From Phylloscopus collybita (lineage: Eukaryota > Chordata > Aves > Passeriformes > Phylloscopidae): a stretch of DNA of 64,000 bases. The stretch lies in the NCBI GenBank assembly GCA_027886175.1, contig JAJNNQ010000077.1, forward strand, positions 558,001 through 622,000, given 5' to 3'. The notes under the pieces are model-generated. The model worked only from the letters and a program-made list of their open reading frames with translations, ran no database searches and had not been told where the DNA came from. Shown in pieces: positions 1,191 to 43,701 of this stretch (its first letter is position 1; each line of letters begins with the position of its first letter). The position numbers and the translations under genes are program-made.

Positions 1191-1194
1191 GTCC

Positions 1195-2901: not shown

Positions 2902-2999
2902 TGGTTCCTGGGGCGTCCCCCTGTCCCTCCGCGGTAGTTCGGAACCTGCCGCTACCGCCGTCGTCCACCGTCCAGGCGTATCCTGTTCCCCAGGCTCTG

Positions 3000-3019
3000 T
3001 TCCCGGGTTTATGGCACCA
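3000..3019 (-). promoter_or_regulatory. Putative tRNA primer-binding site of ERV-A
   Basis: On the minus strand, TGGTGCCATAAACCCGGG begins three bases after the inferred LTR end. Starting with TGG and lying against the LTR are the expected features of a retroviral primer-binding site. I cannot assign the tRNA with confidence. Confidence 0.45.
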
Positions 3020-3022
3020 CTA

Positions 3023-3374
3023 TGTTGTCGCTCTTTCAGCCACCACCGTGGCGGCCTGGGTTAGGTGGACGGCACGGCTTCCACAAGCTGTGTGTGGAGC
3101 TCGGGCTAATGACACAGCAGACACCAATGTGGTGGATCGTCAAAAGCGTTTATTACCTAAAGCATAGGGTTTAAGTACTATCTGGGTCTCGCTACGTCAT
3201 AGGGGTCTTACTACGTTTCCTGAGGGTAACGGAAAAATACTGGTATGTCTGTGGAGAGGGGTTTGTGTGCTTGAGATAGAGTTATCTCGGGAGAGGAATG
3301 TGCCTTGCCCTTTCCCGTGACAAACCGACTGTCTTCCGGACGCCTGTCCCTTTCCAACTCACTTCTTCTCCACA
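3023..3374 (-). mobile_element. 5' LTR of ERV-A
   Basis: On the minus strand the block starts TGTGGAGAAG and ends GCGACAACA, giving the TG...CA ends of an LTR, about 352 bp. It contains an AATAAA polyadenylation signal (TTTATT on the plus strand near 3150). It lies between gag with its primer-binding site on one side and foreign integrase sequence on the other. No second LTR is visible for comparison. Confidence 0.6.
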
Positions 3375-3600
3375 TGGCATGAGGCACAGGATAGGTCTCC
3401 AGCCACCCAGTGGTGGCTTCCACCATGGTCAGCACGTAGTGCTTGCCTTGGCGGGTTTGGGGCAGGGTGATGTAATCAATCTGCCAGGCCTCCCCATACT
3501 TATATTTGGACCACCGTCCACCGTACCAGAGGGACTTCACCCGCTTGGCCTGCTTGATGGCAGCACACATCTCACAGTCACGGATAACCTGAGAAATACT
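3375..3600 (-). pseudogene. Integrase fragment of a second ERV
   Basis: About 60 codons on the minus strand carry the end of a zinc-binding domain and the start of an integrase core (YGEAWQIDYITLP, then YVLTMVEATTGWLETY, with the first catalytic D). This sequence differs clearly from the integrase at 171-1190, so it comes from another element family. The integrase reading is cut at the ERV-A LTR border. The open frame continues into the LTR only by chance. The other end stops at a 12-A run at 3601-3612. Confidence 0.75.
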
Positions 3601-4335
3601 AAAAAAAAAAAAGGCCGAGAGAAATTCAGGAATACTTGGGGAAATGTTGGGATTTGAGGGGGGAAATGGAGCAATTTTTAGGATTTGGGAATTTTGGGGG
3701 TGGGGTTGGGATTTGCTCCCTTCTGAGCCTGGGTTTGGAATTCTGGGATTTTTTGGTGCTCTGAGGGATTTTTGTGATTTTTCTGCTCTGGCAGTTGCAG
3801 CTGGGAGAGGGGAAGGAGCCAGAGACCCAAATCCGAGAATTCCAGCCCAAATTCAAATTCCGGGAGTGAATCAAAGGAATATTTGAAAGAATCATGGGAA
3901 TGGTGGGAAAATTCTGGGAGTAAACATGCAGCATCTATGGTGACTTTGGTGTTATTTCTAGAAACTGTAGGGAAAACTTAAAATTTTCTTAGAAGAATTC
4001 TGTAATTTTAGCGAAAATTTGGGGGATTTTTTAAAAAAATTTGGATTTTGGGGGGAATTTGGGGGATTTTAGGGAGAATTTTGGAAACTTTGGGAGATTT
4101 GAGGAGAAATTTCAGAAAATTTGGGGTGTATTTCAGGTGATTTGGGGGTAAATTTTAGAGATTTTTCAGTTGGTTTGGGGTGAATTTTGGGGACTTTTGG
4201 GTGGATTTGGGGTGGATTTTTGGGTGGATTTGGGGTGAATTTCAGGGATTTTTTTGGGTGAATTCTGGGGATTTGTATGGATTTGGGCGAATTTTGGAAA
4301 TTTTTGGCACCTCCGGGGAGGGCTGATGTCGATGT

Positions 4336-5044: not shown

Positions 5045-5286
5045 TCATTTGCATAGGGGGCGTGGCCCGGCCCGCAGGGGGCGTGGCCAGATGGGCACCT
5101 CCTCCCCCAGCAGGGGGCGCAGGGGCAGCTCCTGCTCGGCCTCGCTCTCGCCCCACAGCTGCCGGGTCCTCCCAGCCTCCAGGTGGCGCTCGGTTGGTGG
5201 CGCGCAGCTGGGCCGGGTCATAGAGAGGGGCGGGGTCCAGGCCGTGGAGGTTGATCAGCGACACCAGGTACTGGGTGTAGTGAGCC
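5045..5286 (-). pseudogene. Terminal exon of an unrecognised minus-strand gene, frameshifted copy
   Basis: On the minus strand a splice acceptor (CACTCAG) precedes coding sequence starting AHYTQYLVSLINLHGLDPAP and running to a TGA at 5045-5047. It is homologous to 13702-13936. Relative to that copy it carries one extra base after the PAQL codons, which shifts the frame. A 6-bp in-frame difference follows in the Leu-rich tail. I do not recognise the family. The exon overlaps three CTCF-like motifs. It may be a decayed paralogue, or the extra base could be an assembly error. Confidence 0.45.
5071..5190. promoter_or_regulatory. Cluster of CTCF-like motifs
   Basis: Motifs of the CCNNCAGGGGGCG type occur at about 5071-5086, 5107-5123 (CCCAGCAGGGGGCGCAG) and 5176-5190 (CCTCCAGGTGGCGCT). 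They are repeated at the matching place in the next unit (13730-13841). Clustered, equally oriented sites are typical of insulators. Here they also overlap a putative exon, so some conservation could be coding. Confidence 0.5.
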
Positions 5287-6100
5287 CTGAGTGACCGCAA
5301 GTGACCACTGAGTGACTACTGAGTGACCACTGAGTGACCAGTGACCGCTGAGTGACCAATGACCACTGAGTGACCACAGCCCCAAAATGCACGAGAAATG
5401 ACCCAAAATGACCCCTGAGTGATCAGAGTGACCACTGCGTGACCACTGAGTGACCACGGCCTTGAACTGACCAGAAACTGCCCGGAAACCGCCCGAGAAC
5501 TTACCCAAAAATGGCCCCAAAGTGATGCAAAAATGACCCAAAGTGACCCAAGTGACCCGTGAGAGATCAATGAGTGACCCCAGTGACCCCCGACTGACCC
5601 AAGTAACCCAAAATGTCCCAAATGATGATGGTCACTGATGGTCACTGATGGTCACTGATGGTCACTGATGGTCACGGATGGCCATTGATGGTCATTGATG
5701 TCTGGTGATGGTGAGTGATGGTGAGTGATGGTCAGTGATGGTTGTTGATGGTCATTGATGGTCATCAATGGCCATTGATGATCCTTTGAGTGTCCAACAG
5801 TGGTGACCAAGACCTTTTGCCCTCTGAGTGTCCGGTGGTCATTGAGACCTTCCACACTTCGAGTGCCCAGTGGTCATCAAGTGCTCTTGTCCTTTGGGTG
5901 CCCAGTGGTGGTCAAGAGCTCCGGGCGTCCATCAGTGGCTGCCCAGGACCAACAGAACTTTTCCAGGTGCTCCCAGATGTTGTCCAGATGTTCTCCAGGT
6001 GTTTCCCAGGTGTCCCCAAGTGTCCTCAGGTGGTTCCCAGGTGTCCTCAGGTGGTTCCCAGGTATTCCCAGGTGCTTTCCAGGCATTCCCAGGTGTTCTC
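5287..6100. repeat. Minisatellites with 10-12 bp units
   Basis: Three adjoining blocks occur. 5287-5600 has degenerate copies of ACTGAGTGACC. 5620-5790 has a 10-bp unit of the GGTCACTGAT type. 5940-6100 has CCCAGGTGTCC-like units. Open frames across this stretch on both strands are repeat artefacts. The same families recur at 13937-15310. Confidence 0.85.
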
Positions 6101-8290: not shown

Positions 8291-8329
8291 TGGGCCAAAT
8301 TAAAATCGGGAATTTTGGGCTAAAAATCT

Positions 8330-9039
8330 CCTCCACAGGAGGCAGCTTTGGCTGAAAAGCGGGAAAACCGGAATTAAAGGGGGATAAGCGGGGGAAGCGG
8401 CGGGAAACGGGGCTGAGAGCAGAATTCTGGCGTCTTTTTAATCAAAAATCCCTTTTGTTTCCGCGTTTTTGGCCGCGTTGCCACGGCGACCGCGCAACGA
8501 CCCAATCGGAGGGCGGCAAAGCGGCGCTGCAGCCAATGGGAGCGCGCCGGGGGCGGGGCCGGCGGCTCGGAGGGGCCGAAGGTCCTCGAGGCCGAAGGTC
8601 GTCGAAGTCGCCGCCTCCGGGGCCGCGTCCGGATCCGCCGCCGCCGCTTCGGGGCTCCGGGGGGCCCGGTAAAGGGCGGCAGCGCTGTCGCGAGATGACG
8701 TCAGGGCCCCCCCCGCGCCGCGACCTCACGAGGGGGGCGGCGGGGCAGCGGCGGCGGCCGAGGGGGGGAACGGAGCCTGAGGGCGGCGCCGCCGAGGGGC
8801 GCTAAAGTGGGAGGGGAGGGGGAGCGGGGGCGGGGCTTAAAGGGCCTGGCTTGGGCGCCGCTGTTCTCAGCGGGAGGGGGCGTGGCTTGGGCTCCATTGA
8901 GTCCAATGGGGGCGCGGCTTGGACGGCCGTGACGTCATCGCCACGCTGCCGACGTCACCGCCGCTTCCCCCCCCCTCCAGACGTCACCGCAGGACAAAAC
9001 TCGGTTCCGGGGGTTTTCCCCCAAAAAATCCGCCCCGGG
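8330..9039 (+). promoter_or_regulatory. CpG-island promoter of copy 1
   Basis: A GC- and CpG-dense block precedes the first ATG. Visible elements in order are an RFX-type X-box GTTGCCACGGCGAC (8477-8490), CCAAT boxes at 8502-8506 and 8533-8537, GC boxes of the GGGGGCGGGGCC type near 8548, and CRE/X2-like sites. The matching block before copy 2 (16330-17100) keeps the X-box, both CCAAT boxes, the GC boxes and three CREs, which argues that they are functional. No TATA box is seen, in keeping with a CpG-island promoter. It could also be bidirectional. Confidence 0.65.
8930..8987 (+). promoter_or_regulatory. Three CRE/X2-like sites of copy 1
   Basis: TGACGTCA at 8930-8937 and two GACGTCAC variants at 8951-8958 and 8980-8987 lie within 60 bp, shortly upstream of the ATG at 9040. 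CREB/ATF-family factors bind this motif, and it equals the X2 box of MHC promoters. Confidence 0.6.
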
Positions 9040-12000
9040 ATGGGGTCGGGGGGCTCCAAAGCGCCGCCGGACCCGGTGAGCAAAATCCCAAAACTCGGGA
9101 ATTTGGTGGGGGGGCGGGGCTGGAATTTTTTGGGAATTTCTGGAGCTGAAATTCCCAAAAAATCCAACCCCCCCCCAGGCCTTTGCGATGATGTCAGACG
9201 ACTCCGACATCGAGGCCATGCGGAAGGAGCTCAAGGAGTTGAGGCAGGTGAGGGAATTTCGGGAATTTTTGTGAATTTTGTTTCCCATTTTTTACCTGAT
9301 TTTTCCAAAAACGCGGGAAATTTTGGGGGAGCAGGGCTGGAATTTTTCGGGAATTTCTGGAGCTGAAATTCCCCAAAAAACCCCAACCCCCCCCCCAGGC
9401 CCACGCGATGAGGTCAGAGTTCAGGATCGCCTTGCGGAAGAAACTCAAAGAGATGGTGCAGGTGAGGGAATTTCGGGAATTTTCGGGAATATTTTTCCCG
9501 TTTTCCAACTTTTTCAAAGCAGGAATTTTTGGAGGGGGCAGGGCTGGAATTTCTGGGGAATTTCTGGAGCTGAAATTCCCAAAAAAACCCAACCCCCCCC
9601 CCCCACCCAGGCCAACACACAGATGTCCAAGTTCTCCATCGCCTTGGTCAAGGAGCTCAAGGAGATGAAGAAGGTGAGAGAATTTCGGGAATTTTCGGGA
9701 ATTTTTTTTCCCATTTTTCCAGCGATTTTTCCTAAATCTCAGGAATTTTGGGGGAGGTGGGGCTGGAATTTTTTGTGAATTTCTGGAGCTGAAATTCCCA
9801 AAAGAAACCAAACCCCCCCAGGCTGACGCGACAACGTCAGAGTTCTGCACCACCTGGATGAAGGAGTTCGAGGAGGTGAAGCAGGTGAGGGAATTTCGGG
9901 AATTTTCAGGAATTTTTTTCCTGTTTTCCCACCGAATTTTCCCAAAACTCGGGAATTTTTGGGGGGCGGGGCTGGAATTTTTGGGGAATTTCTGGAGCTT
10001 AAATTGCCAAAAAACCCCAAAAACCCCCCCAGGCCAGCGCAAGGATGTCAGAGTTCAGGATCGCCTTGCAGAAGCAGCTCAAGGAGATTAAGAAGGTGAG
10101 GGAATTTTGGGAATTTTCAGGAAATTTTTTCCCATTTTCCACTGATTTTTCCCAAAACTCAGAAATTTTTTGGGGGGGTGGGGCTGGAATTCTGTGGGAA
10201 TTTCTGGAGCTGAAATTCCCATAAAAACCCCAACCCTCCCCAGGACAACGCAATGAGGTCACTGTTCTGCATCATCTGGCAGAAGGAGCTCGAGGAGTTG
10301 ATTCAGGTGAGGGAATTTCGGGAATATTCAGGAACTTTTTTCCCATTTTCCAACTAATTTTTTTCAAAACTCAGGAATTTTGGGGGGGGACAGGGCTGGA
10401 ATTTTTTGTGAATTTCTGGAGCTGAAATTCCCAAAAGAAACCAACCCCCCCCCAGGCTGACGCAATGATGTCCGAGTTCTGCACCACCTGGCTGAAGGAG
10501 TTCAAGGAGGTGAAGCAGGTGAGGGAATTTCGGGAATTTATAGGAATTTTTTTCCTGTTTTCCCACTGATTTTTCCGAAAACTCGGGAAGTTCTTCCTTT
10601 TTTTCCTCCAACTTCTGCCTAAATTTCCCCTTTTTTGCCCCAAATTTTTCCGATTTTGCCATTTTTGCCCGAATTATTTTTCCCAAATTGCCCCATTTTT
10701 TATTCTGATTTATCCCAAAATTCTTCATTCTTGCTCCGATTTCTCCGAAATTTCCCCCAAATTTCCCCAAAATTCTTCATTTCCCTCCTAATTTTCCTGA
10801 ATTTCCCTTTTTCTTTGAGTTTCCTCTGCCTTAACCTGATTTTCCCTAAAATTTTCCACCCCAGGAGCCCAGGAGGGAGAGCGGGAGCAGGTGAGGGAAT
10901 TTTGGGACAAAATCTGGGGAATTTGGGGGAAATGGGGGAACATGAAGAGGAAAATGGGAAATTTGGGGGAAAATTGTGAGAAATTGAGGCAAAGATGAAG
11001 AATTTTTGGAGAAATTGGGGCAAAAATGGGGAAGTTTGGAAAAAAATGGGGTATTTGGGAGAAATTGGGGTCAAAATGGGGAAATGTGGGAGAAAATTGA
11101 GAGAAATTGAGGTAAGAATGGGGAAATTGGGGAAAAAATTGGGAAATTTGGGAGAAAGTGGGGCAAAAATGGCAACATTGGGGGAAAATTTGGGAGAAAT
11201 GGAGACAAAGGTGAATTTTGGGAAAATATTTGGGGATTTGGGGAGAAAATTTGGGTTTTTTGGGGAAATCGGGTGATTTTCGGGTGATTTTCAGAAAAAA
11301 TTTTGATTTGGAGAGAAAATGTTGGAGTTTTGGGAGGGAATTTGTGTGGAATTCTGGGAATTTTGAGAACATTTGGGAATTCGGGGAGAAAATTTGGGGA
11401 GCCGGGACAAATTCAGGAATTTTGGAGGAAGTGTTGGGATTTGAGGGGGAAAATGGGGAGATTTTTAGGATTTGGGTATTTGGAGGGGGGGGGGGCGGGG
11501 GGAGGTGGGTTGGGATTTGCTCCTTTCTGAGCCTGGATTTGGAGTTTTTCTGGGATTTTTTGGGCTCTGAGGGATTTTTGGGATTTTTCTGCTCTGGCAG
11601 CTGCATCCGGGAGAGGAAAAGGAGCCAGAGTCCCAAATCCTGGGTTTCCAGCTCTGTATTCGGGAATTCCGGCCCCAAATCTGAGGATTCCATCCCCAAA
11701 TCCAGGAATTCTGACCCCAAATCTCAGGATTCCAGCCCCAAATCCCAGGATTCCGGCCCCAAATCTGGGAATTCCAACCCCAAATCTGGGAATTCCAACG
11801 CCAAATCCGAGGATTCCGGCCCCAAATCCGGGAATTCCAACCCCAAATCCCAGGATTCCGGCCCCAAATCCGGGAATTCCAACCCCAAATCCGAGGCTTC
11901 CGGCCCCAAATCCGGGGATTCCGGCCCCAAATCTGGAGATTCCAGCCCCAAATCTGGGAATTCCAACCCCAAATCCCAGGATTCTGGCCTTGAATCCCAG

Positions 12001-12717
12001 AATTCCAGCTCCAAATCCGGGAATTCAGGCTCCAAATCCAGGAATTCCAGCCCCAAATCCCAGGATTCTGGCCCCAAATCTGGGAATTCCGGCCCCAAAT
12101 CTGGGGATTCCAGCCCCAAATCTGGGAATTCAGGCCACAAATCCCAGGATTCCGGCCCCAAATCTGGGAATTCAGGCCACAAATCCCAGGATTCCGGCCC
12201 CAAATCCAGGAATTCCAACCCCAAATCCCAGGATTCCAGCCCCAAATCTGAGAATTCAGGCCCCAAATCCAGGAATTCCGGCCCCAAATCTGAGGATTCC
12301 AGCCCCAAATCCAGGAATTCAGGCCCCAAATCCGGGGATTCCGGCCCCGAATCCCGGGATTCTGGCCCCAAATCCGGGGATTCCGACCCCAAATCTGGGG
12401 ATTCCGGCTCCAAATCCGGGGATTCCAGCCCCAAATACAAGGATTCTGTCCCCAAATGCGAGGATTCTGGCCACGAATCCGAGGATTCCGGTCCCAAATC
12501 CGTGGATTCCGGCCAAAATTCAGATTTCTGGAGCAAATCTCTGGAATATTTTGAAGAAGTTTGTGAATTTGGGGTGAAATCTGTGGAATTTTTGGTGTTA
12601 GTTGCAGAACACGTGCGGAAACTTCAGGAAGCTTTGGGGATAATTTCGGACAGTTGGGAGAAAATTTCATCGATTCGGAGAAAATTTTCAGGAAATTCAG
12701 GGAGATCTGGGACTTAG
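9040..12717 (+). CDS. Copy 1 of an unrecognised multi-exon gene: myristoylation-type start, repeated helix exons, heptad-repeat tail
   Basis: Exons: 9040-9075, 9179-9247, 9399-9461, 9611-9673, 9822-9884, 10033-10095, 10244-10306, 10456-10518, 10865-10890 and 11601-12717. All introns are GT-AG. The sum is 1626 nt, or 541 residues. Exon 1 encodes MGSGGSKAPPDP, with G2, S6 and K7 fitting an N-myristoylation signal. Seven phase-0 exons (69 then 63 nt) encode short charged amphipathic segments such as IALRKKLKEMVQ. The 26-nt exon brings the last exon into frame. The last exon starts RERKRSQSPKSW, continues with about 41 seven-residue repeats (consensus DSGPKSG) and ends in a non-repeat tail (FWSKSLEYFEEVCEFG) to the stop. 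A membrane-tethered scaffold is one guess. The function is unknown, and I recognise no family. Confidence 0.65.
9076..10518 (+). repeat. Tandem exon-intron units of copy 1
   Basis: Seven units with periods of about 150-220 bp each contain a 63-69 nt exon, a GTGAGGGAATTTCGGGAATTT donor-side intron start, a poly-T/C stretch, an inverted repeat and a C-rich acceptor. Exons differ more than introns in places and always keep the frame. The inverted repeat GGGAATTTC-N7-GAAATTCCC is at 9132-9156 in the first intron. Confidence 0.85.
11650..12535 (+). repeat. 21-bp coding repeat of copy 1, about 41 units
   Basis: The unit GATTCCGGCCCCAAATCTGGG encodes DSGPKSG. The Pro-Lys-Ser core is the most constant part, and the other positions vary among D/N, S/G/N and G/Q/E/R. 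The array is open in several frames on both strands, so long antisense and shifted ORFs here are not evidence of genes. Confidence 0.9.
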
Positions 12718-13390
12718 GGAAGATTTGGGGGAAAATCTGGCAGATTTTAGGGGAAATTTTGGCAATTTTGGGAGATTTGGGGGCGAAACTGCAGAAAATC
12801 CAGGGGATTTGGGGCGGAATTTCTGGGAATTTTGTGATACCGGGGGGATTTTATCAGTGTTATAAATGAAATTTGCCAATTTTGTCAGTGTTATAAATGG
12901 AATTTGTCAATTTTATCAGTGTTATGAATGAAATAATCTGATTTTATCAGTGTTATAAATAAAATTAATTAATTTTATCAGTGTTACAAATGAAATCTGC
13001 CAATTTTATCGCCGAAGGATGAACCTGGATTCAGCCTCTGCTGTATATTTTGTACCATATATTGCTTATACCATAAGTTAGTCTTTATAACCTATAGTAC
13101 AGTAAAACACGAATTATTTTATACCATAGATCAAACATATTAAAAAAAAAAAAAAAAAAAAAGGAAAATAAGAAAAAAAAAAGGAAAAAAAAGAAGAAAT
13201 TTTTTAAATGTATTTTTTTTTCCTGGAAGTGTTTGCTTTTTTTACCTGCGATAAAAAAAAATAAAGCTTGTTGTTTGAGTTAATTTTGTTGGTTTTAAAC
13301 TAATTTTTTATTGGGGTTTTTTTAGGAAAGGAAGGGGATTTTGGGGGGGTCACGTTTATTGCAACCCCAAATTCCCAAAAGATGACCCAA
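12718..13390 (+). repeat. 3' flank of copy 1 with TTATAAATGAAAT repeats and a poly-A tract
   Basis: After the stop come GGGAATTTTGG-like sequence, about five copies of the TTATAAATGAAAT unit (12850-13010) and an A-rich run (13141-13200). AATAAA words near 13259 are candidate polyadenylation signals. No other exon is seen. Confidence 0.6.
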
Positions 13391-13690
13391 AATTACCCCA
13401 AACTACCCCCAAATTGCCCCAATTTCTCCTGAAATGACCCGAAATATTTCCTAAATGACCCCAAACTGACCCAAAACCACCAAAAATTCCCGAAAACTGC
13501 ACCAAAATGTCCAAAAATTCCCAAGAAATGACACAAACTGCCCCTGAATGACCCCAAAATGACCCAAATTTCCCCTAAATGGTCCCAAAATGCCCCAAAA
13601 CTGCCCCAAAATGATCCAAAATTCCCCCAAATACCCCTAAGTGCCCCAAATTTCCCCAAAATCCATGGGTGTTTTCCCCTTATTTGGCCA
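13391..13690. repeat. Degenerate CCCAAAATGACC-type repeat
   Basis: Short words such as CCAAAATGACCC and CCCCAAATTGCCC repeat imperfectly. A related block without the following exon lies at 24290-24840. Confidence 0.7.
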
Positions 13691-13701
13691 TTTCCCTGGC
13701 C

Positions 13702-13936
13702 TCATTTGCATAGGGGGCGTGGCCCAGCCCGCAGGGGGCGTGGCCGGACGGGCGCCTCCTCCCCCAGCAGGGGGCGCAGCTCCTGCTTGGCCTCGCTCTC
13801 GCCCCACAGCTGCCGGGTCCTCCCAGCCGCCAGGTGGCGCTCAGTGGCAGTGCACAGCTGGGCCGGGTCATAGAGAGGGGCAGGGTCCAGGCTGTGGCAG
13901 TTGATCACCGACACCAGGTACTCGGTGTAGTGAGCC
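13702..13936 (-). CDS. Terminal exon of an unrecognised minus-strand gene
   Basis: On the minus strand an acceptor CACTCAG precedes about 77 codons ending at TGA (13702-13704). The reading starts AHYTEYLVSVINCHSLDPAP and includes ERHLAAGRTRQLWGESEA and a Leu/Arg/Pro-rich tail ending PLCK. The exon enters in phase 2, so upstream exons must exist. They are not identified in the repeats above 13937. The sequence looks like ordinary protein rather than repeat, and a homologue is at 5045-5286. Function unknown. The weak point is that only one exon is visible. Confidence 0.45.
13730..13841. promoter_or_regulatory. Cluster of CTCF-like motifs, second unit
   Basis: GCAGGGGGCG near 13731-13740, CCCAGCAGGGGGCGCAG at 13763-13779 and CCGCCAGGTGGCGCT at 13827-13841 match the cluster at 5071-5190 in order, spacing and strand. 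Confidence 0.5.
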
Positions 13937-14480
13937 CTGAGTGACCGCAAGTGACCAGTGAGTGACCACTGAGTGACCGCTGAGTGACCAGTGACCACTG
14001 AGTGACCACTGAATGACCAGAGCCTCGAATTGACTGGAAACTGCCTGGAAACCGCTCAAGAAATTACCCCAAAATGGCCCCAAAGTGACCCAAAAATGGC
14101 CCCAAAGTGACCAAAAAATGGCCTCAAGATGGCCCCAAAGTGACCCCAACGTGACCCTAAGCTGACCAAAAAATGACACAAAGTGACCCAAAAATGACCC
14201 CTGAGTGATCAATGAGTGACCCCCGAATGACCCCAGTGACCAGCGACTGACCCAAGTGACCAAAAATGTCCCAAAATGTCCCAAAATGACCAAAAGTGAC
14301 CCCAAAATGACCGCAAAATAACCTAAAAATGACTCAAAAGTGACCCCAAGTGACCACTGACCCCAAGTGACCCCAAGTGACCCCAAGTGACTAATGAGTG
14401 ACCCCACGTGACCTTAAACTGTCCCAGAAATGACCCTAAACCACCCAAAAATCATCCCAAAAATGACCACAAAGTTACCG
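13937..14480. repeat. GAGTGACC / CCAAAAATGACC minisatellite
   Basis: Degenerate 10-12 bp words continue upstream of the minus-strand exon, as at 5287-5600. I found no exon within them. Confidence 0.8.
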
Positions 14481-14489
14481 CTGAGTTGA

Positions 14490-15310
14490 TAGCCATCAAT
14501 GGTCAGTGATGGCCATTGATGGTCGCTGATGGTTGTTGATGGTCATCAATGGCCATTGATGGTCATTGATGCCCATTCATGGATGTTGGTGGCCCTGGAT
14601 GGCTGTTGATGGTCATTGATGGTCAATGATGGTCAATGATGGTCAGTGATGGTCAGTGATGGTCACTGATGGTCGCTGATGGTCGTTGATGGTTGTTAAT
14701 GGCTGTTGATGGTCATTGATGGCCATTCATGGATGTTGGTGGCCCTGGATGACTGTTGATGGTCATTGATGGTCATTGATGGTCAATGATGGTCAGTGAT
14801 GGTCAGTGATGGTCGCTGATGGTCGTTGATGGTTGTTAACGGCTGTTGATGGTCATTGATGGCCATTCATGGATGTTGGTGGCCCTGGATGGCTGTTGAT
14901 GGTCATTGATGGTCATTGATGGTCAATGATGGTCAGTGATGGTCGCTGATGGTCGTTGATGGTTGTTAACGACTGTTGATGGTCATTGATGGCCATTCAT
15001 GGATGTTGGTGGCCCTGGATGGCTGTTGATGGTCATTGATGGTCATTGATGGTCAATGATGGTCAGTGATGGTCGCTGATGGTCGTTGATGGTTGTTAAC
15101 GGCTGTTGATGGTCATTGATGGCCATTCATGGATGTTGGTGGCCCTGGATGGCTGTTGATGGTCATTGATGGTCATTGATGGTCACTGATGGTTGTTAAC
15201 GGCTGTTGATGGTCATTGATGGCCATTCATGGCCGCTGATTGTCGTTCATGATCATTGATGGCCATTGGTAGACGTTGGTGGTTGCTATTGGCTGTTGGT
15301 AGCCATTCAT
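14490..15310. repeat. Higher-order GATGGTCATT minisatellite
   Basis: A 10-bp base unit is organised into longer units marked by GGATGTTGGTGGCCCTGGAT at 14581, 14731, 14871, 15001 and 15131. These markers are spaced by 150, 140, 130 and 130 bp. Spacing in multiples of ten shows that the longer unit grows and shrinks by whole base units. Confidence 0.85.
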
Positions 15311-15319
15311 GGTGTAATC

Positions 15320-15990
15320 AATCTCTGCTTTAATCAATCTCTAATAAATAATTATCTACTTTAATAAATCCCTAATTAATCTCTGCTTTAATCGATTTCT
15401 AATCAATCTGTTTTAATTAATAAATCCCTGCTTTAATTAATTTCTACTTTAATCAATCTCTGATTTAATAAATAAATACTCACTTTAATCTCTCTGCTTT
15501 AATAAATATATAATCAATCTCTGCTTTATTAAATAAATCTCTGCTTTAATATCTACTTTAATCAATCTCTGCTTTAATCAATCTCTGCTCTAATCAATCT
15601 CTAATCAATCTCTGCTTTAATCAATCTCTAATAAATGAATCTCTGCTTTAATGAATATCCACTTTAATAAATTTCTACTTTAATGAATCTCTAATTTAAT
15701 AAGTAACTATTTAATAAATCTCCACCTCTTTAATAAATATCTATTTCAGTATATAACTGCTTTAATATATATTTAATACATAACTACTTTAATGAATCCC
15801 TACTTAAAATAAGTCTCTAATTTAATAAATAACCTTATGAATCTCTAATAAATAATCTAATAAATATCTACTTTAATCAATATCTAATTTAATACATAAA
15901 TAGTTTAATAAATTTCCAAACAATCTCTACTTTAATCAATCTCTGCTTTAATCAATCTCTGACCAATCTCTAATCAGTATCTATTTAATT
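15320..15990. repeat. AATCAATCTCTGCTTTAATC repeat, inverted relative to 7860-8290
   Basis: Words such as CTTTAATCAATCTCTAATAA are the reverse complement of those before copy 1. The block lies directly before the copy 2 promoter. Confidence 0.8.
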
Positions 15991-16329
15991 GTTTTTTACT
16001 TAAACTTTTATTCCATTTCCATTAAAAATCGCTGAACAAGAGAAGAAGAAGAGAAAATCCCAGGAAATTTGGGAGGAATCGTTGGGAACAAAGGAAAAAA
16101 AAAAAACTGAAGGGAATTTGGGTCAAAAATGGAAACTTTGGGGGGAAACGCTCAGGAATTTGTGTCCAAAGGGGAAAAACAGGGCAAATCTATGGGAATC
16201 GGGGGAAATCCCTGGGAAATGGAGAAAACTGGGCGGAATTGAGGAGATTTGGGTCCGATTTTGGCCGATTTGGAGCAAATTGTGAGGGGATTTGGGGCAA
16301 AATTGGGAATTTTGGACCAAAAACCTCCA

Positions 16330-17100
16330 AAATCTCCTCCGTACGAGACAGCTTTCGGTCAACAGCGGGAAAACCGGATTAAAACGGGGATAACCGGGGG
16401 AAAGCGGTGGAAAATGGGGCTGAAGGCAAAATTTGGGCAATTCTGGTTTTTTTTTTAATCAAAAATCCCTTTTGTTTCCGCGTTTTTGGGTGCCTCGAGC
16501 GGAGGCTCCGCAGACCGTGCTGGGCCGCGTTGCCGTGGAGACAGCGCAACGATCCAATCGGAAGGCAGCAACGCATAGCTGCAGCCAATGGGAGCGCGCC
16601 GGGGGCGGGGCCAGCGGCTCGGCGGGGCCGAAGGTCCTCAGGGCCGAAGGTCGTCGAAGCCGCCGCTGCTGCCGCCTCCGGATCTGCCTCCGCCGGCCCC
16701 TTCTTCGGGGCTCAGGGGACCCGTTAAGGGGGCAGCGCTGTCGCGAGATGGCGTCAGGGCCCCCCCCCGCGCCGTGATGTCACGAGGGGGCGGCGGGGGG
16801 GGGCGGCGGGGCAGCGGCGGCGGCCGAGGGGGGGAACGGGAGCACGGGGACGGGAGAGCCGGGAACGGAGCCTGAGGGCGGCGCCGCCGGGGGACGTTGA
16901 AGCCGGAGGGCAGGGGGAGCGGGGCGGGGCTTAAAGGGGGCGTGGCTTGGGCGCTGCTCTACTCAACGGGAGGGGGCGTGGCTTGGGCGGCCGTGACGTC
17001 ACCGCCGCTTTCCCCATGACGTCACTGCCGCGGCCGCCCATGACGTCACTGCAGGAAAACACCGGATTCCGGGGGTTTTCCCCCCATTAATACCCCCGGG
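16330..17100 (+). promoter_or_regulatory. CpG-island promoter of copy 2
   Basis: Homologous to 8330-9039. It has an X-box GTTGCCGTGGAGAC (16529-16542), CCAAT boxes at 16554-16558 and 16584-16588, GC boxes, and TGACGTCA sites at 16994-17001, 17017-17024 and 17041-17048. The X-box here is closer to the RFX consensus in its second half than the one in copy 1. Confidence 0.65.
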
Positions 17101-20100
17101 ATGGGGTTGGGGGCCGCCAAAGTGCTGCTGAACTTGGTGAGCAAAAACCCAAAACTCGGGAATTTGGTGGGGGGGTGGGCCTGGAATTTTTCAAAAATTT
17201 CTGTAACTGAAATTCCCAAAAAATCCAAAAATCTCCCCCTGGCCAGCGTGATGCCGTCAGACGGCTCCGAGTCAGTGGCCTTTGAGAAGGCGCTTGAGGA
17301 GATGAAGCAGGTGAGGGAATTTCAGGAATATTTGGGAATTTTGTTTCCCATTTTTTAACTGATTTTTCCCAAAACTCAGGAATTTTTGGGGGGTGGGGTT
17401 GGAATTTTTTGGGAATTTCTGGAGCTGAAATTCCCAAAAAAAACCCCAATCCCCCCACCAGGCCCGCGCAAAGAGATCAAAGATCAGGATCACCTTGCAG
17501 AGGAAGCTCGAGAAGTTGGAGAAGGTGAGGGAATTTCGGGAATTTTTGGGAATTTTTTTCCCATTTTCCCACTGATTTTTTTCAAAACTCAGGAATTTGG
17601 GGGGGGGGGGGGCGGGGCTGGAATTTTTTTGGAATTTCTGGATCTGAAATTCCCAAAAAAACCCAAAAAACCCCAAAATCCCAGGCCCGTGCGTTGACGT
17701 CAGACAAATCCGACATTGACATCAAGGCCCTGCGGAAGAAGCTCGAGCAGTTGGAACAGGTGAGGGAATTTTGGGAATTTTTAGGAATTCTTTTTCCCCA
17801 TTTTTTAGCTGATTTTTCCCAGAACTTGGGAATTTTGGGGGGGCGGCGGGGCTGGAATTCTTCGGGTATTTCTGGAGCTGAAATTCCCAAAAAAACCCAA
17901 ACCCCCCCAGACCGGCGCGATGAGGTCAGAGCTCAACATCGCCTTGCAGAAGGAGCTCAAGGAGATGAATCAGGTGAGGGAATTTCGGGAATTTTCAGGA
18001 TTCTTTTTCCTGTTTTCCCACTGATTTTTTTTCAAAACTCAGGAATTTTGGGGGGGTGGGTTTGTGGGGCTGGAATTTTTTTGGATATTTTGGAGCCGAA
18101 ATTCCCAAAAAAACCCAAAATCCCCCCCCAGGCCGGCGCGATGATGTCAGATTACTCCGACATCGACATCGAGGCCTTGCAGAAGTCACTCGATGAGATG
18201 GAGAAGGTGAGGGAATTTCAGGAATTTTCAGGAAATTTTTTTTTTCCAATTTTTTCACCAATTTTTCCTAAAACTCGGGAATTTTTGGGGGGTGGGGCTG
18301 GAATTTTTTGGGAATTTCTGGAGCTGAAATTCCCAAAAGAAACCAAACCCCCCACAGGCCAATGTGATGATGTCAGTGTTCTACATCACCTGGCGGAAGG
18401 AGCTCAAGGAGATGGAGCAGGTGAGGGAATTTCGGGAATTTTCGGGAATTTTTTTTTCCCATTTTTCCAACTTTTCCACCAATTTTTCCCAAAACTCAGG
18501 AATTTTGGGGGGTGGGGGGCAGGGCTGGAATTTCTCAGGAATTTCTGGAGCTGAAATTTCCAAAAAAACCCAAAACCCCCCCAGGACGATGCGATGACGT
18601 CAGACGACTCCAACATCACGTGGAAGAAGCTCAAGCAGTTGGAGAAGGTGAGGGAATTTCGGGAGTTTTCGGGAAATTTTTTTTTTCCCATTTTTCCACC
18701 AATTTTTCCCAAAACTCGGGAATTTTTTTGGAGGGCGGGGCTGGAATTTTTGGGGAATTTCTGGAGCTGAAATTCCCAAAAAAACCAAAACCCCCCCAGG
18801 CCGACATGATGACGTCGGATGACTCCGACATCGACATCGAGGCCTCGCAGAAGAAGCTCAAGCAGTTGGAGAGGGTGAGGGAATTTCAGGAATATTTGGG
18901 ACTTTTTTTTCCCCGTTTTTCCAAATTTTCCACCAATTTTTCCTGAAACTCGGGAATTTTTTGGGGGGTGGTGCTGGAACTTTTCAGAAACTTCTGGAGC
19001 TGAAATTCCCAGAAAAAGCCAACCCTCCCCTCAGGCCGGCAAGATAACGTCCAATGTGTTAGACATCATCATCGAGACCTTGCTGAAGCAGTTCGAGGAG
19101 ATGAGGCAGGTGAGGGAATTCCAGGAATTTTCAGAATTTTTTTTTCCCATTTTTCCACCCATTTTTCCCAAAACTCGGGAGTTTTATGGGGGCGGGGCTG
19201 GAATTTTTCAGGAATTTCTGGAGCTGAAGTTCCCAAAAGAAACCAAACCGCCCCAGGCCGGTGCGAAGACATCAGACAATTCCTGCATGTTCATCAAAGC
19301 CTTGCTGGAGGAGATCGAGAAGTTGATGCAGGTGAGGGAATTTCCGGAATTTTCAGGAATTTTTTTTCCCATTTTTCCACCGATTTTTCCCAAAACTCAG
19401 GAATTTTGAGGGGGGGGCGGCGGGGCTGGAGTTTTTCAGGAATTTCTGGAGCTGAAATTCCCCCAAAAAAACCCAAAACCCCCCCAGACCCATGTGATGA
19501 GGTCAGAGCTCAACATCGCCTGGCGGAAGAAGCTCAAGGAGATGGAGAAGGTGAGGGAATTTTGGGAATTTTTGGGAATATTTTTCCTGTTTTCCTACTG
19601 ATTTTTTTCAAAACTCAGGAATTGGGGGGGAGGGGGGGCAGAGTTGGAATATTTTCAGGAATTTCTGGAGCTGAAATTCCCAAAAAACCCCAAACCCCCC
19701 CAGGCCAACTCATGGATGTCCAAGTTCTACATCGCCTTGCAGAAGGAGTTGAAGGAGATGAGGCAGGTGAGGGAATTTTGGGAATATTTGGAATTTTTTT
19801 CCCGTTTTCCACTGATTTTTTTCAAAACTCAGGAATTTTTGGGGGGGCAGGGCTGGAATTTCTCGGGAATTTCTGGAGCTGAAATTCCCAAAAAAACCCA
19901 AACCCCCCCAGGCCCTTGTGAGGATATTACAGATAAGGATCACCGTGCAGGAGAAAGTCGAGGAGATTAAGAAGGTGAGGGAATTTCTGGAGGTTTTTTT
20001 TCCCATTTTTCCACTGATTTTTCCCAAAATTTGGGAATTTTTTGGGGGGTGGGGCTGGAATTTCTCAGGAATTTTTGGAGCCGAAATTCCCATAAAAAAC

Positions 20101-23100
20101 CCCAACCCCCCCCACCCCCCCAGGACAATGCGATGAGGACACTGTTCCGCGTCATCTGGGAGGAGGAGCTCGAGCAGTTGGAGAAGGTGAGGGAATTTCG
20201 GGAATTTTCGGGAGGTTTTTTTTTCCCATTTTTCCACCAATTTTTCCCAAAACTCGGGAATTTTTTGGAGGGCGGGGCTGGAATTTTTGGGGAATTTCTG
20301 GAGCTGAAATTCCCAGAAAACCAAAACCCCCCCAGGCCGACACGATGATGTCGGACGACTCCGACACCGACATCGAGGCCTCGCAGAAGAAGCTTGAGGA
20401 GATGAGGCAGGTGAGGGAATTTCAGGAATTTTTAGGATTTTTTTTCCCCGTTTTCCCACTGATTTTTCCCAAAACTAGGGAATTTTTGGGGGTCGGGGCT
20501 GGAATTTTTTTGGAATTTCTGGAGCTGAAATTCCCAAAAAAACCCAACACCCCCCCCCCCCCCAGGCCCACGCGATGTGGTCAGAGTTGTGCACCGCCTG
20601 GAGGAAGAAGCTCAAGGAGATGGAGAAGGTGAGGGAATTTCGGGAATTTTCAGAATTTTTTTTCCCGTTTTTCCACCAATTTTTCCCAGATTTTGGGAAT
20701 TTTTGGGGGGGCGGGGCTGGAATTTTTTGGGAATTTCTGGAGCTGAAATTACCAAAAGAAACCAAACCCCCCCCAGGCTGACGCGACGACATCAGACGAC
20801 TCCGACATCAAGGCCAGGTGGAAGCAGCTCTACAAGGAGGTGAGGGAATTTTGGGAATTTTCAGGAATTTTTTTCCCATTTTCCACCAATTTTTCCCAAA
20901 ACTCGGGAATTTTGGGGGGGGGGCGGGGGGCTGGAATTTTTCGGGAATTTCTGGAGCTGAAATTCCCAAAGGAAACCAAACCCCCCCAAGGTCCCTGTAA
21001 TGGTGTCACAGTTCTACATCACCTGGCGGAAGAAGTTCAAGGAGTTGGATGAGGTGAGAGAATTTTGGGAATTTTGGGGAATTTTTTTCTCGTTTTTCTG
21101 ATTTTTCCACCGATTTTCCCCAAATTTCTGGAGTTTTGCCCAATTTGTCCCAATTCCCCCAATTTTCAGCTCGGTTTGGCCCCAAATTCCCTGGCTCAGA
21201 ATCGATTTCTCCCAGGTTTCTCGATTTTTCCCGGATTTTCTTCATTTTTGATGCAGTTTTCCCCCAATTTTCCTCAAATTTTCTGATTTTGCCCCAAATT
21301 TTCCCAATTTTGAATCAATTTCCCCAAGTCTCCTCATTTCACTCTGTAATTTTCCCAATTTTTCCTGCTTTGGGCCAAGTTTTATCCCAAATTTCCTTTT
21401 CTTGCCAGTTTTCCCAGTTCTTGCTGCAATTTTACCCAAATTATTCATTTTTGCTTCAATTTTTCTTAAATTTTCTGAATTTTTTTCCAAATTTCTCATT
21501 TTTCCCCAATTTTCCCCAAATTCTTTCTTTTCACCTGAATTTCTCCCAAATTTTCCAATTTTTGCTTCAATTTTCCCCGAATTCTTCATTTTCCCCATAA
21601 TTTTTCCCAAATTTCCCCTTTTCTTCCATATTTTTCTGGTTTTCCCCCAATTTTCCCCAAAATTTTCCACCCTAGGAAGAGCCCTAGGAGCCCAGGAAGG
21701 GGAGCGGGAACAGGTGAGGGAATTTTGGGGCAAAACTGGGGAAATTTTGGGATAAATTGAAAGAAATTAAGCTTAGAATGGCGAAATTGGGGAAAAATTT
21801 GGGAGAAATGGAGGCAAGGGTGAATTTTGGGAGAAAATTTGGGGATTTGGTGGGAAATTTTGGGTTTTTTAGGGAAATCGGGTGGTTTTTGGGGAAAAAA
21901 TTCATTTTGGGGGAAAGTTTTGGAGTTTTAGGAGGAAATATGGGTGAAATTCTGGAATTTTGAGGAAAACTTGGGAACTTGGGGAGAAAATTTGGGAGAC
22001 TGAGAGAAATTCAGGAGTATTGGGGTGAAATGGAGCAATTTTAGGATTTGGGTATTTTGGGGGGGTGTTGGGATTTGCTCAGTTTTTAGGATTTGAAATT
22101 CTGGGATTTTTTAAGGTCTGAGGGATTTTTGGGATTTTTCTGCTCCGGCAGCCACAGCCGGGAGAGGAAAAGGAGCCAGAGCCCCAAATCCTGGGATTCA
22201 AGCTGCAAATCCGGGGATTCCAGCATCAGATCTCAGGATTCCAGTCGTGAATTGGAGAATTCCGGCCTCAAATCCCGGGATTCCAACCTCAAATCCCAGA
22301 ATTCTGGCCTCAAATCTGGGGATTCCATCTTCAAATCCGGGGATTCCAGCCTCAAATCTCAGGATTGCATCTTCAAATCCAGAGATTCCATCTTCAAATC
22401 CAAGGATTCCATCCTCAAATCTGGGGATTCCAGCCGAAAATCCCAGGATTCCACTCCCAAATCCAGGGATTCCGGCCCCAAATCTGGGGATTCCAGCCTC
22501 AAATCCCAGGATCCCAGCCCCAATACGGGGATTCCATCCTCAAATCTGAGGATTCTGGCCCCAAATCCCGGGATTCCAGCCTGGAATTCCGGGATTCCGG
22601 CCTCAAATCCCAGGATTCCGCTCCCAAATTCGGGGATTCCATCCTCAAATCTCAGGATTCCATCTGCAAATCCAGGGATTCCGGCCCCAAATCTGAGGAT
22701 TCCGGCCCCAAATCCGAGGATTCTTGCCTCAAATCCGGGGATTCCAGCCTCAAATCTGGGGATTCCCCTCCCAAATCCGGGGATTCCAGCCCTAAATCCG
22801 GGGATTCCGGCCTCAAATTCCTGGATTTCGCTCCCAAATTCGGGGATTCCAGCCTCAAATCTCAGGATTCCATCTTCAAATCCCTGGATTCCAGCCCCAA
22901 ATCCGAGGATTCCATCCTCAAATCTCAGGATTCCATCTTCAAATCCAGGGATTCCAGCTCCAAATCCGGGGATTCCACTCCCAAATCCGAGGATTCCGGC
23001 CCTAAATCTGGGGATTCTGTTCCCAAATGCGGGGATTCCGGCCCCAAATCTGAGGATTCCACTCCCAAATCCAGGGATTCCGGCCCCAAATCCTGGTATT

Positions 23101-23301
23101 CCAGCCCCAAATCCGGGGATTCTGGTCCCCAATCCCAGGATTCCGCTCCCAAATCCCGGGATTCTGGTCCCCAATCCCAGGATTCCGCTCCCAAATCCGG
23201 GGATTCCAGCTCCAAATGCAGGAATCGCAGGTGCAAATCTGGCTAAAAATCAAATTTCTGGTTGTGATTTTGGAGAAAACTTTGCAGATTTGGGGTGCTA
23301 G
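17101..23301 (+). CDS. Copy 2 of the unrecognised family, with 18 helix exons
   Basis: Exons: 17101-17136, 17242-17310, 17462-17524, 17685-17759, 17911-17973, 18132-18206, 18358-18420, 18585-18647, 18800-18874, 19035-19109, 19257-19331, 19488-19550, 19704-19766, 19912-19974, 20124-20186, 20336-20410, 20566-20628, 20777-20839, 20991-21053, 21688-21713 and 22152-23301 (sum 2424 nt). Exon 1 encodes MGLGAAKVLLNL, still with G2. Helix exons come in a 63-nt class (such as IALQKELKEMNQ) and a 75-nt class carrying SDDSDIDIEA. Two defects are seen. The acceptor before 17242 reads CCCTG instead of CCCAG. The 21-bp array shifts frame near 22520, so the tail after it differs from copy 1. The gene may be skipping exon 2 (in frame), or it may be decaying. 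Confidence 0.55.
17137..21053 (+). repeat. Tandem exon-intron units of copy 2 (18 units)
   Basis: Eighteen units of roughly 150-220 bp follow the pattern seen in copy 1. The 75-nt exons (17685, 18132, 18800, 19035, 19257, 20336) alternate irregularly with 63-nt exons, so expansion was by blocks of several units rather than strict single-unit copying. All exons keep phase 0, and none contains a stop in the gene frame. Confidence 0.85.
22195..23230 (+). repeat. 21-bp coding repeat of copy 2, about 48 units
   Basis: The same unit as in copy 1 but more diverse, with Leu, Phe and Ile replacing Pro (SLKS, SIFKS). A one-base loss at about 22524 (CCCCAATACGGGG where CCCCAAATCTGGGG is usual, also one substitution) shifts the reading to the alternative repeat frame (PNPGIPA-like). 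That frame stays open to 23301. The unshifted frame is open from 22365 to 23246. Confidence 0.8.
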
Positions 23302-24289: not shown

Positions 24290-24840
24290 CCCCAAACAAC
24301 TCAAAATGACCGAAAATGACGCAAAATTGATCCAAAATTGTCCTCAAATGACTCAAAATGACCCAAAATCGACCCAAAGTTGTCCCCAAACGACTCAAAA
24401 TGACCCAAACCAACTCAAACTTGCCCAAAATGACCCAAAACTGCCCCCAAATGACTCAACATTGCCCCCAAATCCACCCAAAATGACCCAAAAATGGCAC
24501 AAAAATGACCCAAAATTGGCTTCAGAATCAACCCTGAAATGGCTCAAAAATGACCCAAAATTGACCCCAAATCCACCCAAAATGACCCAAAATTGACCCC
24601 AAAAATGACCCCAAATCGACCCCAGAATCAACCCTGAAATGGCTAAAAATTACCTGAAATTGACCCAAAATCCACCCAAAATGACCCAGAATTTGAGCCC
24701 CAAATCAACCCCAAAAAGGGCACAAAATTGACCCAAAAATTACCCAAAATTGACCCAAAATTGACCCCAAAAATGACCCAAAATTGACCCAAAAATGTCT
24801 CAAAATTGACCCAAAAATGTCTTGAAATGCCCCAAAATCA
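24290..24840. repeat. CCCAAAATTGACC-type repeat
   Basis: Imperfect tandem words related to 13391-13690. The CTCF cluster and the minus-strand exon that follow such repeats in the other units are missing here, so this unit has lost its middle. Confidence 0.75.
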
Positions 24841-24899
24841 AGAGTTTAAAGTGAGGAAGTTGATGGGATTTATTAAAATAAAAATGTCGATCAAATATT

Positions 24900-25870
24900 C
24901 TGAGTTTTTTTTTTTGGGGGGGAGGAGATTTTTGGAGAATTTAAAGGGAATTTTGGGGAAAAATTTAGAAAATTTGGGGAGATTTTGGGGAATTTTGTGG
25001 GGAATTTCAGGGGCATTTTGTGGGGAATTTCAGAGAATTTGGGGCAATTTTTCAAAAATTATTGGGGATTTGGGGGAATTTGGGGAGATTTTTGAGAATT
25101 TCAGGCAAGACTTCGGAGAATTTAGGGAGTTTTGGGGGAATTTCAGGGATATTGGGGAATTTTGGAGAATTTGGGGCGATTTTTCAACATTTAAGGGGAA
25201 ATTTGGGGAATTTTAGGGGAATTTCAGGGAATTTGGCAGAATTTAAGAAAATTTGGGGAAGATTTTGGAGAATTTCAGGGGGATTTGGGGGGAATTTTGG
25301 AGAATTTGGGGCAAATTTTCAAAATTTAAAAGGAATTTTGGAGAATTTTAGGGGGAAATTTGGGCAATTTTGGAGAATTCAAGGGAGTTTTGGGGGGAAT
25401 TCCAGGGAATTTGGGAAATTTTGGAGAATTTGGGGCAACTTTTCCAAATTTAAGGGGAATTTGGGGAGATTTTGGAGAATTTCAGGGGAAATTTTGGAAA
25501 ATTTTGGGCAATTTTTTGTCTCTGGCCCCAGCCCAGGGCCTTGCCCGCGGTTTTTGTGACCCCAAATCCGAGGATTCTGACCAAAATTCAAATTTCTGGA
25601 GCAAATCGCTGGAATTTTTGGGAAGAGTTTGTGGATTTGGGTAAAATTTGTGGAATTTTTGGCGCCATTTGCAAAAAATGTGGAGAAATTTGCGGAATCT
25701 TTGGAAAAAATTTTAGAGATTGGGGGGAAATTTGGGCGATTTGGGGAAGTTTGGGCATCTTTGGGAGATTTGGGGAGAAAGTGCAGAAAATCCGGGGGAT
25801 TTGGGGGGGAAATTTCTGGGAATTTTGGGATATTGGGGGGATTTTCTCAGTGTTATAAATGAAATTTGTG
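24900..25870 (+). pseudogene. Copy 3: collapsed tail of the unrecognised family
   Basis: Intron-like GGGGAATTTCAGGG sequence (24920-25510) leads into an end homologous to the copy 1 tail. DPKSEDSDQNSNFWSKSLEF at about 25560 parallels the last heptads and FWSKSLEYF of copy 1, followed by a stop at 25644. Only one or two heptads remain, and no promoter or helix exons are present. A single TTATAAATGAAATTTG trace follows at about 25853. Confidence 0.6.
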
Positions 25871-43607: not shown

Positions 43608-43701
43608 AGGGATAAATGGGAGGAAGGTTTTCTCTAAAAGGGAAAAACAAACATTTCAAAACATGTTAAAAGTTTCTGTTACTGCCGGAAGGAGTCCACA
43701 C

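Follow-up and report, generated by a model that had tools for sequence, protein, structure and literature searches.

The question raised by this locus is whether a long series of small and closely similar exons, found twice in one stretch of bird DNA, belongs to working protein genes, and how genes of this kind would grow and shrink. The stretch analysed (the window) comprises 64,000 nucleotides (nt) of Phylloscopus collybita, G000:C79:558001-622000, and lies within a 6.1-Mb contig; the genome searched amounts to 1.25 Gb in 517 contigs. An earlier note had described two copies of one gene plan here, at 9040-12717 (copy 1) and 17101-23301 (copy 2), with 7 and 18 tandem phase-0 exons of 63, 69 or 75 nt, and the same plan was obtained when it was re-derived from the sequence. 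The two copies belong to a multi-copy family that is real and probably protein-coding in this passerine-like bird, and it is likely that at least the genes of the copy 1 type are functional protein genes which evolve by the gain and loss of whole exon units. The predicted protein would begin with 12 residues encoded by a 36-nt exon, continue as a rod of amphipathic helical units (from 4 to 18 of them in the copies with long arrays), each supplied by one symmetrical exon in phase 0, in most cases 63 or 75 nt long, pass into a Ser/Lys/Arg-rich tail of 7-residue repeats and end in a C-terminal amphipathic helix.

Both copies are read from the forward strand. Copy 1 consists of exon 1, seven unit exons (the first of 69 nt, the other six of 63 nt), the small exon of 26 nt and a last exon, which together form one open frame of 541 codons. 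Exon 1 (9040-9075, 36 nt, MGSGGSKAPPDP) has a myristoylation-like start and is followed by the 69-nt unit at 9179-9247 and by the 63-nt units at 9399-9461, 9611-9673, 9822-9884, 10033-10095, 10244-10306 and 10456-10518. The phase-setting exon (10865-10890, EPRRESGS), identical in length in all eight genes of the copy 1 type, leads into the last exon (11601-12717), which encodes RERKRSQSPKS, 40 seven-residue repeats of the SGPKSGD/N type (21 nt each), the C-terminal helix (12523-12714) and the stop. Copy 2 is likewise made of exon 1 (17101-17136, 36 nt, MGLGAAKVLLNL), 18 unit exons of 63, 69 or 75 nt, a 26-nt phase-setting exon (21688-21713, EPRKGSGN) and a last exon of 21-nt repeats (22152-23301). 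Its first unit, of 69 nt, lies at 17242-17310, and units 2 to 7 at 17462-17524, 17685-17759, 17911-17973, 18132-18206, 18358-18420 and 18585-18647; units 8 to 13 follow at 18800-18874, 19035-19109, 19257-19331, 19488-19550, 19704-19766 and 19912-19974, and units 14 to 18 at 20124-20186, 20336-20410, 20566-20628, 20777-20839 and 20991-21053. The small exon of copy 2 must be the 26-nt form because an acceptor 12 nt upstream, which would give 38 nt in the same phase, yields an in-frame TAG.

All 25 unit exons of the window are stop-free in phase 0, as had been claimed, and their lengths are all multiples of three, set against intervening introns of 145 to 164 nt in which every residue modulo 3 occurs. 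Unit donors in both copies are GTGAGG or GTGAGA. The splice sites had been called canonical with one exception, which was located again as the TG acceptor (17240-17241) of the first unit of copy 2; this TG is common to all four copy-2-type genes, every other unit acceptor in the window is AG, and the frame would survive skipping of the unit. The 26-nt exon was said to supply the phase needed by the last exon in both copies. In copy 2 the last exon does start in the frame of copy 1; from about position 22520 its tail runs one base out of step, a repeat of the IPAPNPG type replaces the SGPKSGD type, and the C-terminal helix is therefore missed.

That this regularity exceeds chance can be judged from a larger sample. 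A splice-anchored finder that ignored frame, with a profile built from the 25 window units, gave 204 unit matches in the examined DNA, and 195 of them could be assigned an acceptor/donor pair; the units are related by descent and thus not independent. The length is divisible by three in 187 of the 195, and an in-frame stop is present in four of these 187, as compared with 153 (+1 frame) and 73 (+2 frame) of 183 intact units read in the other frames (127 distinct sequences). Nine matches had no splice pair by the rule of the finder, two of which are intact in the alignment of copy-1-type genes.

When the whole genome was searched at the DNA level with copy 1, at least 293 matches were returned, with seven contigs among the matches listed, and a hand count of promoter or exon 1 matches and unit arrays among the same matches puts the family at about 30 genes, remnants included. 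The match counts are lower bounds, and the number of loci is uncertain because alternative haplotypes may account for some of the contigs. Thirteen further regions were examined, a sample that leaves out the loci on C54 and C107 and parts of C32 and C287. More than 12 further copies have the plan of the window copies, which upholds the proposal of a tandem family grown by the duplication of symmetrical exons. They can be sorted into type A (the copy 1 type, eight genes), type B (the copy 2 type, four), type C (five, four of them examined), type D (three, of which two, D1 and D2, were examined and have 18 units) and types X and E, with few units and long tails. A blastn search with exon 1 of both copies located 27 homologous places in the examined regions; 26 of them are 36 nt long and the 27th, near a contig end, measures 35 nt; ATG begins 26 of the 27. 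In the type B gene L022 (G000:C86:1-10000), unit exons of 62, 64, 74 and 76 nt occur in the first 2 kb, at the contig end, and these 1-nt indels may be assembly or sequencing errors.

The alternative that survives best is that the family was once coding and now consists of pseudogenes or of transcribed non-coding repeats spread by segmental duplication. It is regarded as unlikely, above all in view of the type A genes, and the near absence of in-frame stops from the units at large also argues against it. No lesion affects exon 1, the 26-nt exon, the splice sites or any unit exon present in the eight type A genes, all of which are thus intact through exon 9; seven have 7 units and one, at about 1.04 Mb on C122, has 4, three 63-nt exons being missing together with the intron sequence between them. 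Apart from this loss of three whole units exons 1-9 hold no indel, whereas the introns of the same genes have many, of 1, 2, 3, 8, 11, 12, 14, 18 or 20 nt. Indels in the last exon are multiples of 21 (21, 42, 84 and 588), the exceptions being a change of +3 or +2 close to the stop and +1 shifts in two genes. Between L001 and L005 there are 6 synonymous changes per 105 sites and 8 nonsynonymous changes per 444, with introns 1-8 differing by 4.1%; for L001 against L005-L007, divergence is 0.020-0.025 upstream and 0.041-0.066 in introns. Among the 28 type A pairs the ratio of nonsynonymous to synonymous rates (omega) is 1.00 in one, one has no exon change, and the others lie below 1, the highest at 0.88. 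The maximum likelihood (ML) estimate over the eight genes is about 0.26, with twice the log-likelihood difference (2 delta lnL) about 9.2 against omega 1, and recent copies thus look mildly constrained. For type B, D1 and D2 taken together ML omega is about 0.3 (2 delta lnL 54), and D1 against D2, at 79% amino-acid identity, gives 0.46 by the method of Nei and Gojobori (NG86). Selection that keeps the frame, by which a protein-coding gene is recognised, is therefore seen in the type A genes and in the unit exons as a set, and not in every copy.

A number of observations weigh against function, and the stops, lost splice sites, frameshifts and retrovirus-like insertion found in several copies are what a decayed family would be expected to contain. 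Type C carries a TAG stop in all four examined copies, and the copy that was read has also lost a donor and acquired the retrovirus-like insertion; this type looks like a pseudogene. D1 has a frameshifted unit, and D2 a shortened unit with an acceptor that has no pyrimidine tract. Within type A the C-terminal helix is in frame in five of the eight genes, with +1 shifts in L003 and L004 and a nonsense codon in L002. The shifted tail of copy 2 is common to all three copy-2-type genes aligned, and copy 2 may still encode a protein with another tail or be a gene in the course of being lost. The ML estimates were made with kappa on a coarse grid, and the value of 0.3 for B, D1 and D2 depends on the codon-frequency model; NG86 puts type B against type D at about 1.0, and for the C-terminal helix alone ML omega is indistinguishable from 1. 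From these last two results it follows that constraint is not uniform, and strong purifying selection is not claimed for the deep comparisons, where the outcome depends on the model (NG86 about 1, ML about 0.3). The predicted protein contributes two further points, in that Gly2 is absent from 10 of the 27 exon 1 homologues (types X and E, which begin MA, MV, ME or MT, and one place without ATG) and the amphipathic periodicity of the rod is modest, with power peaks at 3.3-3.4 in copy 1 (z 2.0) and 3.7-3.8 in copy 2 (z 3.0). Finally, it is odd for an expressed and conserved gene that no relative appears in annotated proteomes within the reach of the searches, an absence that also counts in favour of decay. 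Birth and death, with only some members intact and type A above all, is a fair summary of the family.

The searches behind that last point agree with the earlier failure to recognise a homologue. With residues 1-195 of copy 1, no protein homologue reached E <= 1e-3 among 1333 word-sharing candidates of 298-947 residues, and with an alignment of four sequences (types A and B and two distant D genes) none reached E <= 10 among the best 7993 word-sharing candidates; relatives that share no 5-residue word or fall outside the length range would be missed by this approach. The olfactory receptor of the window, used as a positive control, retrieved passerine proteins, which places avian proteomes within the database. 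Pfam, NCBIfam and the PDB, searched by sequence, gave nothing significant for the predicted proteins of the family. The description of the family was likewise not found in the open-licence literature searched, and its apparent novelty has that scope. The commonest other genes on passerine contigs rich in loci of the major histocompatibility complex (MHC) are zinc fingers and PAK1, according to the available text of a long-read survey of the bird MHC, in which the present family is not named (PMC7875000).

How the arrays change is best approached through the units themselves, for which rapid evolution had been proposed. In the 25 window units the exons differ at a proportion of 0.34 of nonsynonymous (pN) and 0.30 of synonymous (pS) sites, and the flanking introns at 0.127; in one common alignment of the 25 the exons reach 0.346 against 0.169 and 0.195 in the introns on the two sides, and with CpG-related sites removed the values are 0.248 against 0.111 and 0.123. 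Exons are thus about twice as divergent as introns between units, and a neutral tandem repeat should lack such a step at the exon borders. Rapid change is therefore borne out between units, and the mild constraint among recent type A copies sets its limit. For a non-redundant set of 39 units of 63 nt, pN comes to 0.394 and pS to 0.264, and for 17 units of 75 nt the figures are 0.305 and 0.316. In the 39 units hydrophobic positions change conservatively (F/L, I/V, W/L, L/F/M, L/M/V), K14 is kept in 32 and E18 in 27. These patterns are read as units diversifying on a conserved amphipathic helix, with the introns apparently homogenised by exchange.

Type B and D1, 48% identical and with 18 units each, are collinear (diagonal score 803, as against 432 +/- 58 in 20000 permutations, none of which attained it), so that an array of about 18 units predates the split between B and D and would have been present in their ancestor. 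Type A units are most like units 11, 12, 14, 15 and 16 of type B, and type A, including copy 1, therefore looks like a shortened array. Positional kinship of the introns is weak between B and D1, and none was seen between B and D2. Whole units are exchangeable in frame because the unit exons start and end in phase 0 and the introns, of about 150 nt, closely resemble one another; unequal homologous exchange between such introns would then add or remove whole exon-intron units with the frame intact, and the length of the tail would step by 21 nt through a like process. Unequal crossing over had been put forward as the cause of changing unit number. The whole-unit changes that it predicts are present, both in the type A gene with 4 units in place of 7 and in a type C copy without a unit that two of its sisters have, and unequal homologous exchange would be the simplest agent of them, although the recombination process itself is reached by inference.

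The symmetrical exon repetition on which this depends is a well-known principle of growth. Titin (in its PEVK region), nebulin and tropoelastin are conserved genes in which runs of phase-equal exons are gained, lost or skipped in frame, and the new family resembles them in the repetition of symmetrical exons and differs in its fast turnover, its pseudogenes and the lack of any relative found. In snake venom phospholipase A2 (PLA2) and three-finger toxins the exons of duplicates are more divergent than the introns, as they are here, where the duplicates compared are units inside one gene; unlike the toxins, whole sister genes of type A show omega below 1. The architecture is new and the family apparently undescribed. 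If it is expressed, bird genomes would contain, in a part that resists assembly, a multi-copy protein family that has gone unrecognised, and with it an uncommonly clean natural record of the birth and loss of exon units, in which diversifying exons are set in uniform introns and the frame is guarded by symmetry. It would then offer a tractable case for studying the growth and shrinkage of genes with tandem exons, and for asking whether such genes contribute to turnover in the MHC region of songbirds.

What the protein might do can be approached from its ends and its promoters. Met-Gly followed by [SLW]G[GAP][SA]K begins the protein in types A to D, at 17 of the 27 exon 1 homologues (the 35-nt copy being counted by its first residues). 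A Met-Gly start with a small residue at position 6 is the pattern of N-myristoylation, and the start of types A to D fits it. Types X and E are without Gly2, and membrane tethering would therefore be limited to a subfamily at most; myristoylation across the family was rejected on the count given above. The rod would be helical, with proline at none of its 149 residues in copy 1 and at two of 404 in copy 2, and the 25-residue units contain a polar SDDSD stretch which may break the helix. Repeats of 21 nt, each encoding a Ser/Lys/Arg-rich 7-mer, make up the tail, which can be long: in two type E copies it is free of stops over 616 and 428 codons, as far as the C-terminal helix. That helix is present in distant paralogues at 47-57% identity, and single-sequence AlphaFold2 modelled the last 66 residues of copy 1 as one helix (mean predicted local distance difference test score, pLDDT, 91 in the best model and 63 to 91 over the five models).

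The promoter region of copy 1 (8300-9039, forward strand) is CpG-rich, with an observed/expected CpG ratio of 1.14 over the 900 bases upstream, and a promoter scan found CCAAT and GC boxes and the sequence TGACGTCA, which resembles a cAMP response element (CRE), at -344 and -110. In the likewise CpG-rich promoter region of copy 2 (16400-17100, forward strand) TGACGTCA stands at -107, -84 and -60. All 16 promoters scanned, from types A to D and belonging to genes picked by a pattern that demanded ATGGGG, are CpG-rich and have TGACGTCA between -60 and -110, and in all seven type A genes scanned it is at -110. CRE sites such as TGACGTCA are linked with germ-cell expression. The guess at function, offered with low confidence, is a helical scaffold subject to diversifying selection: a place in defence is a tentative possibility that falls short of an even chance, and one in male germ cells, to which the CRE sites point, is more doubtful.

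A more elaborate proposal would make the family MHC-linked, with a rod of up to 18 diversified helical units that evolved by exon-unit exchange, is varied further by in-frame exon choice and serves as a scaffold in defence or recognition. If this were true, recombination between near-identical introns would keep producing new rod lengths while the exons diversify. The window does hold an MHC class I gene (56735-58070, forward strand) about 33 kb from copy 2, with readable alpha-1, alpha-2 and alpha-3 domains and Pfam matches to MHC_I (4e-18 and 2e-21) and C1-set (7e-14). A tblastn search with its alpha-1 and alpha-3 segments found no counterpart in the 13 other regions, of at most 20 kb each; linkage to MHC class I is seen in this window alone, and the other regions argue weakly against it. 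Taken whole, this proposal is quite improbable.

It is also improbable that the arrays are there for combinatorial splicing, in which any in-frame subset of units would be joined to give many rod lengths per gene and the uniform introns would serve choice and not recombination. Such a scheme would account for the symmetry of all intact units, for donors and acceptors that are nearly identical and for introns more uniform than the exons, and broken units could be skipped without harm. The conserved order of units between types B and D suggests on the other side that every unit ordinarily matters. About 50-75 nt before each acceptor lies an inverted repeat, GGGAATTTC-N7-GAAATTCCC, which is kept in most of the 25 introns. 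Intronic RNA pairing through it is not supported, as no compensatory change occurs in the 25 units, and this too counts against combinatorial splicing.

The BG genes of the chicken, of the butyrophilin family, had been cited as a parallel, and they come closest to the new family in outward form. In the available text of published descriptions they are MHC-region genes in many copies, with exon numbers that vary between copies and reported selection on the repeats, and their tail exons are of 21 nt (18 or 24 at times), have a first codon split 1+2 and stand behind signal, immunoglobulin V (Ig-V) and transmembrane (TM) exons (among PMC2907588, PMC4046983, PMC5938342). The family described here shares with them, as far as those descriptions go, the multiple copies, the many small equal-phase exons predicted to code for helical repeats, the exon numbers that differ between copies and, in this window, the vicinity of the MHC. 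It differs in being phase 0 and mostly of 63 or 75 nt, and in its 12-residue start exon, its Ser/Lys/Arg 7-mer tail and its C-terminal helix. The parallel is therefore retained as an analogy, and membership of BG is rejected on exon phase, on exon length and on the lack of Ig-V and TM exons, in a comparison with the exon plan of BG as published. A passerine BG or butyrophilin offshoot that lost its Ig-V and TM exons and kept a growing coiled-coil tail, which the tandem small helix-coding exons, the nearby MHC class I gene and the varying copy and exon numbers might recall, is highly improbable given units of 63/69/75 nt in phase 0 in place of 21-nt exons with a split codon, unit exons that directly follow exon 1 in both copies, no Ig or TM match in Pfam, and an exon 1 and C-terminal helix of the family's own that are common to distant copies.

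The remainder of the window records further copies and their surroundings. A remnant of a third copy, of type C, comprises the end of the last intron and the last exon at 3610-4300 (forward strand; its junction was matched by eye to the type C copy at C86:1633k), and a possible remnant of a fourth, with a degenerate tail and C-terminal region, lies at 24800-25870 (forward strand; weak tblastn match at 25591-25641, E 0.002). Two retrovirus-like stretches with long reading frames, recognised by eye, occupy 171-3570 and 42258-49460 on the reverse strand, and the first adjoins the type C remnant at about 3610, at a junction identical to that in the type C copy at C86:1633k. The olfactory receptor frame is at 39412-40431. 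Behind copy 1, in tail-to-tail orientation, lies part of the last exon of RNF31 (HOIP, the ligase of the linear ubiquitin chain assembly complex, LUBAC) at 13705-13935 on the reverse strand, open over 77 residues and identified by Pfam PF18091 (2e-7) and by RNF31 in the PDB (8e-11). A second, frameshifted fragment is found behind the type C remnant (5048-5285, reverse strand), none was found behind copy 2, and 10 of the 13 further regions contain matches. Because these fragments stand behind family copies, the ancestral gene may have been a neighbour of RNF31, with duplicated segments taking a piece of it along. Between the gene copies there are also arrays of a 10-nt repeat of the TGATGGTCAT type, at 14466-15330 and 5595-5820.

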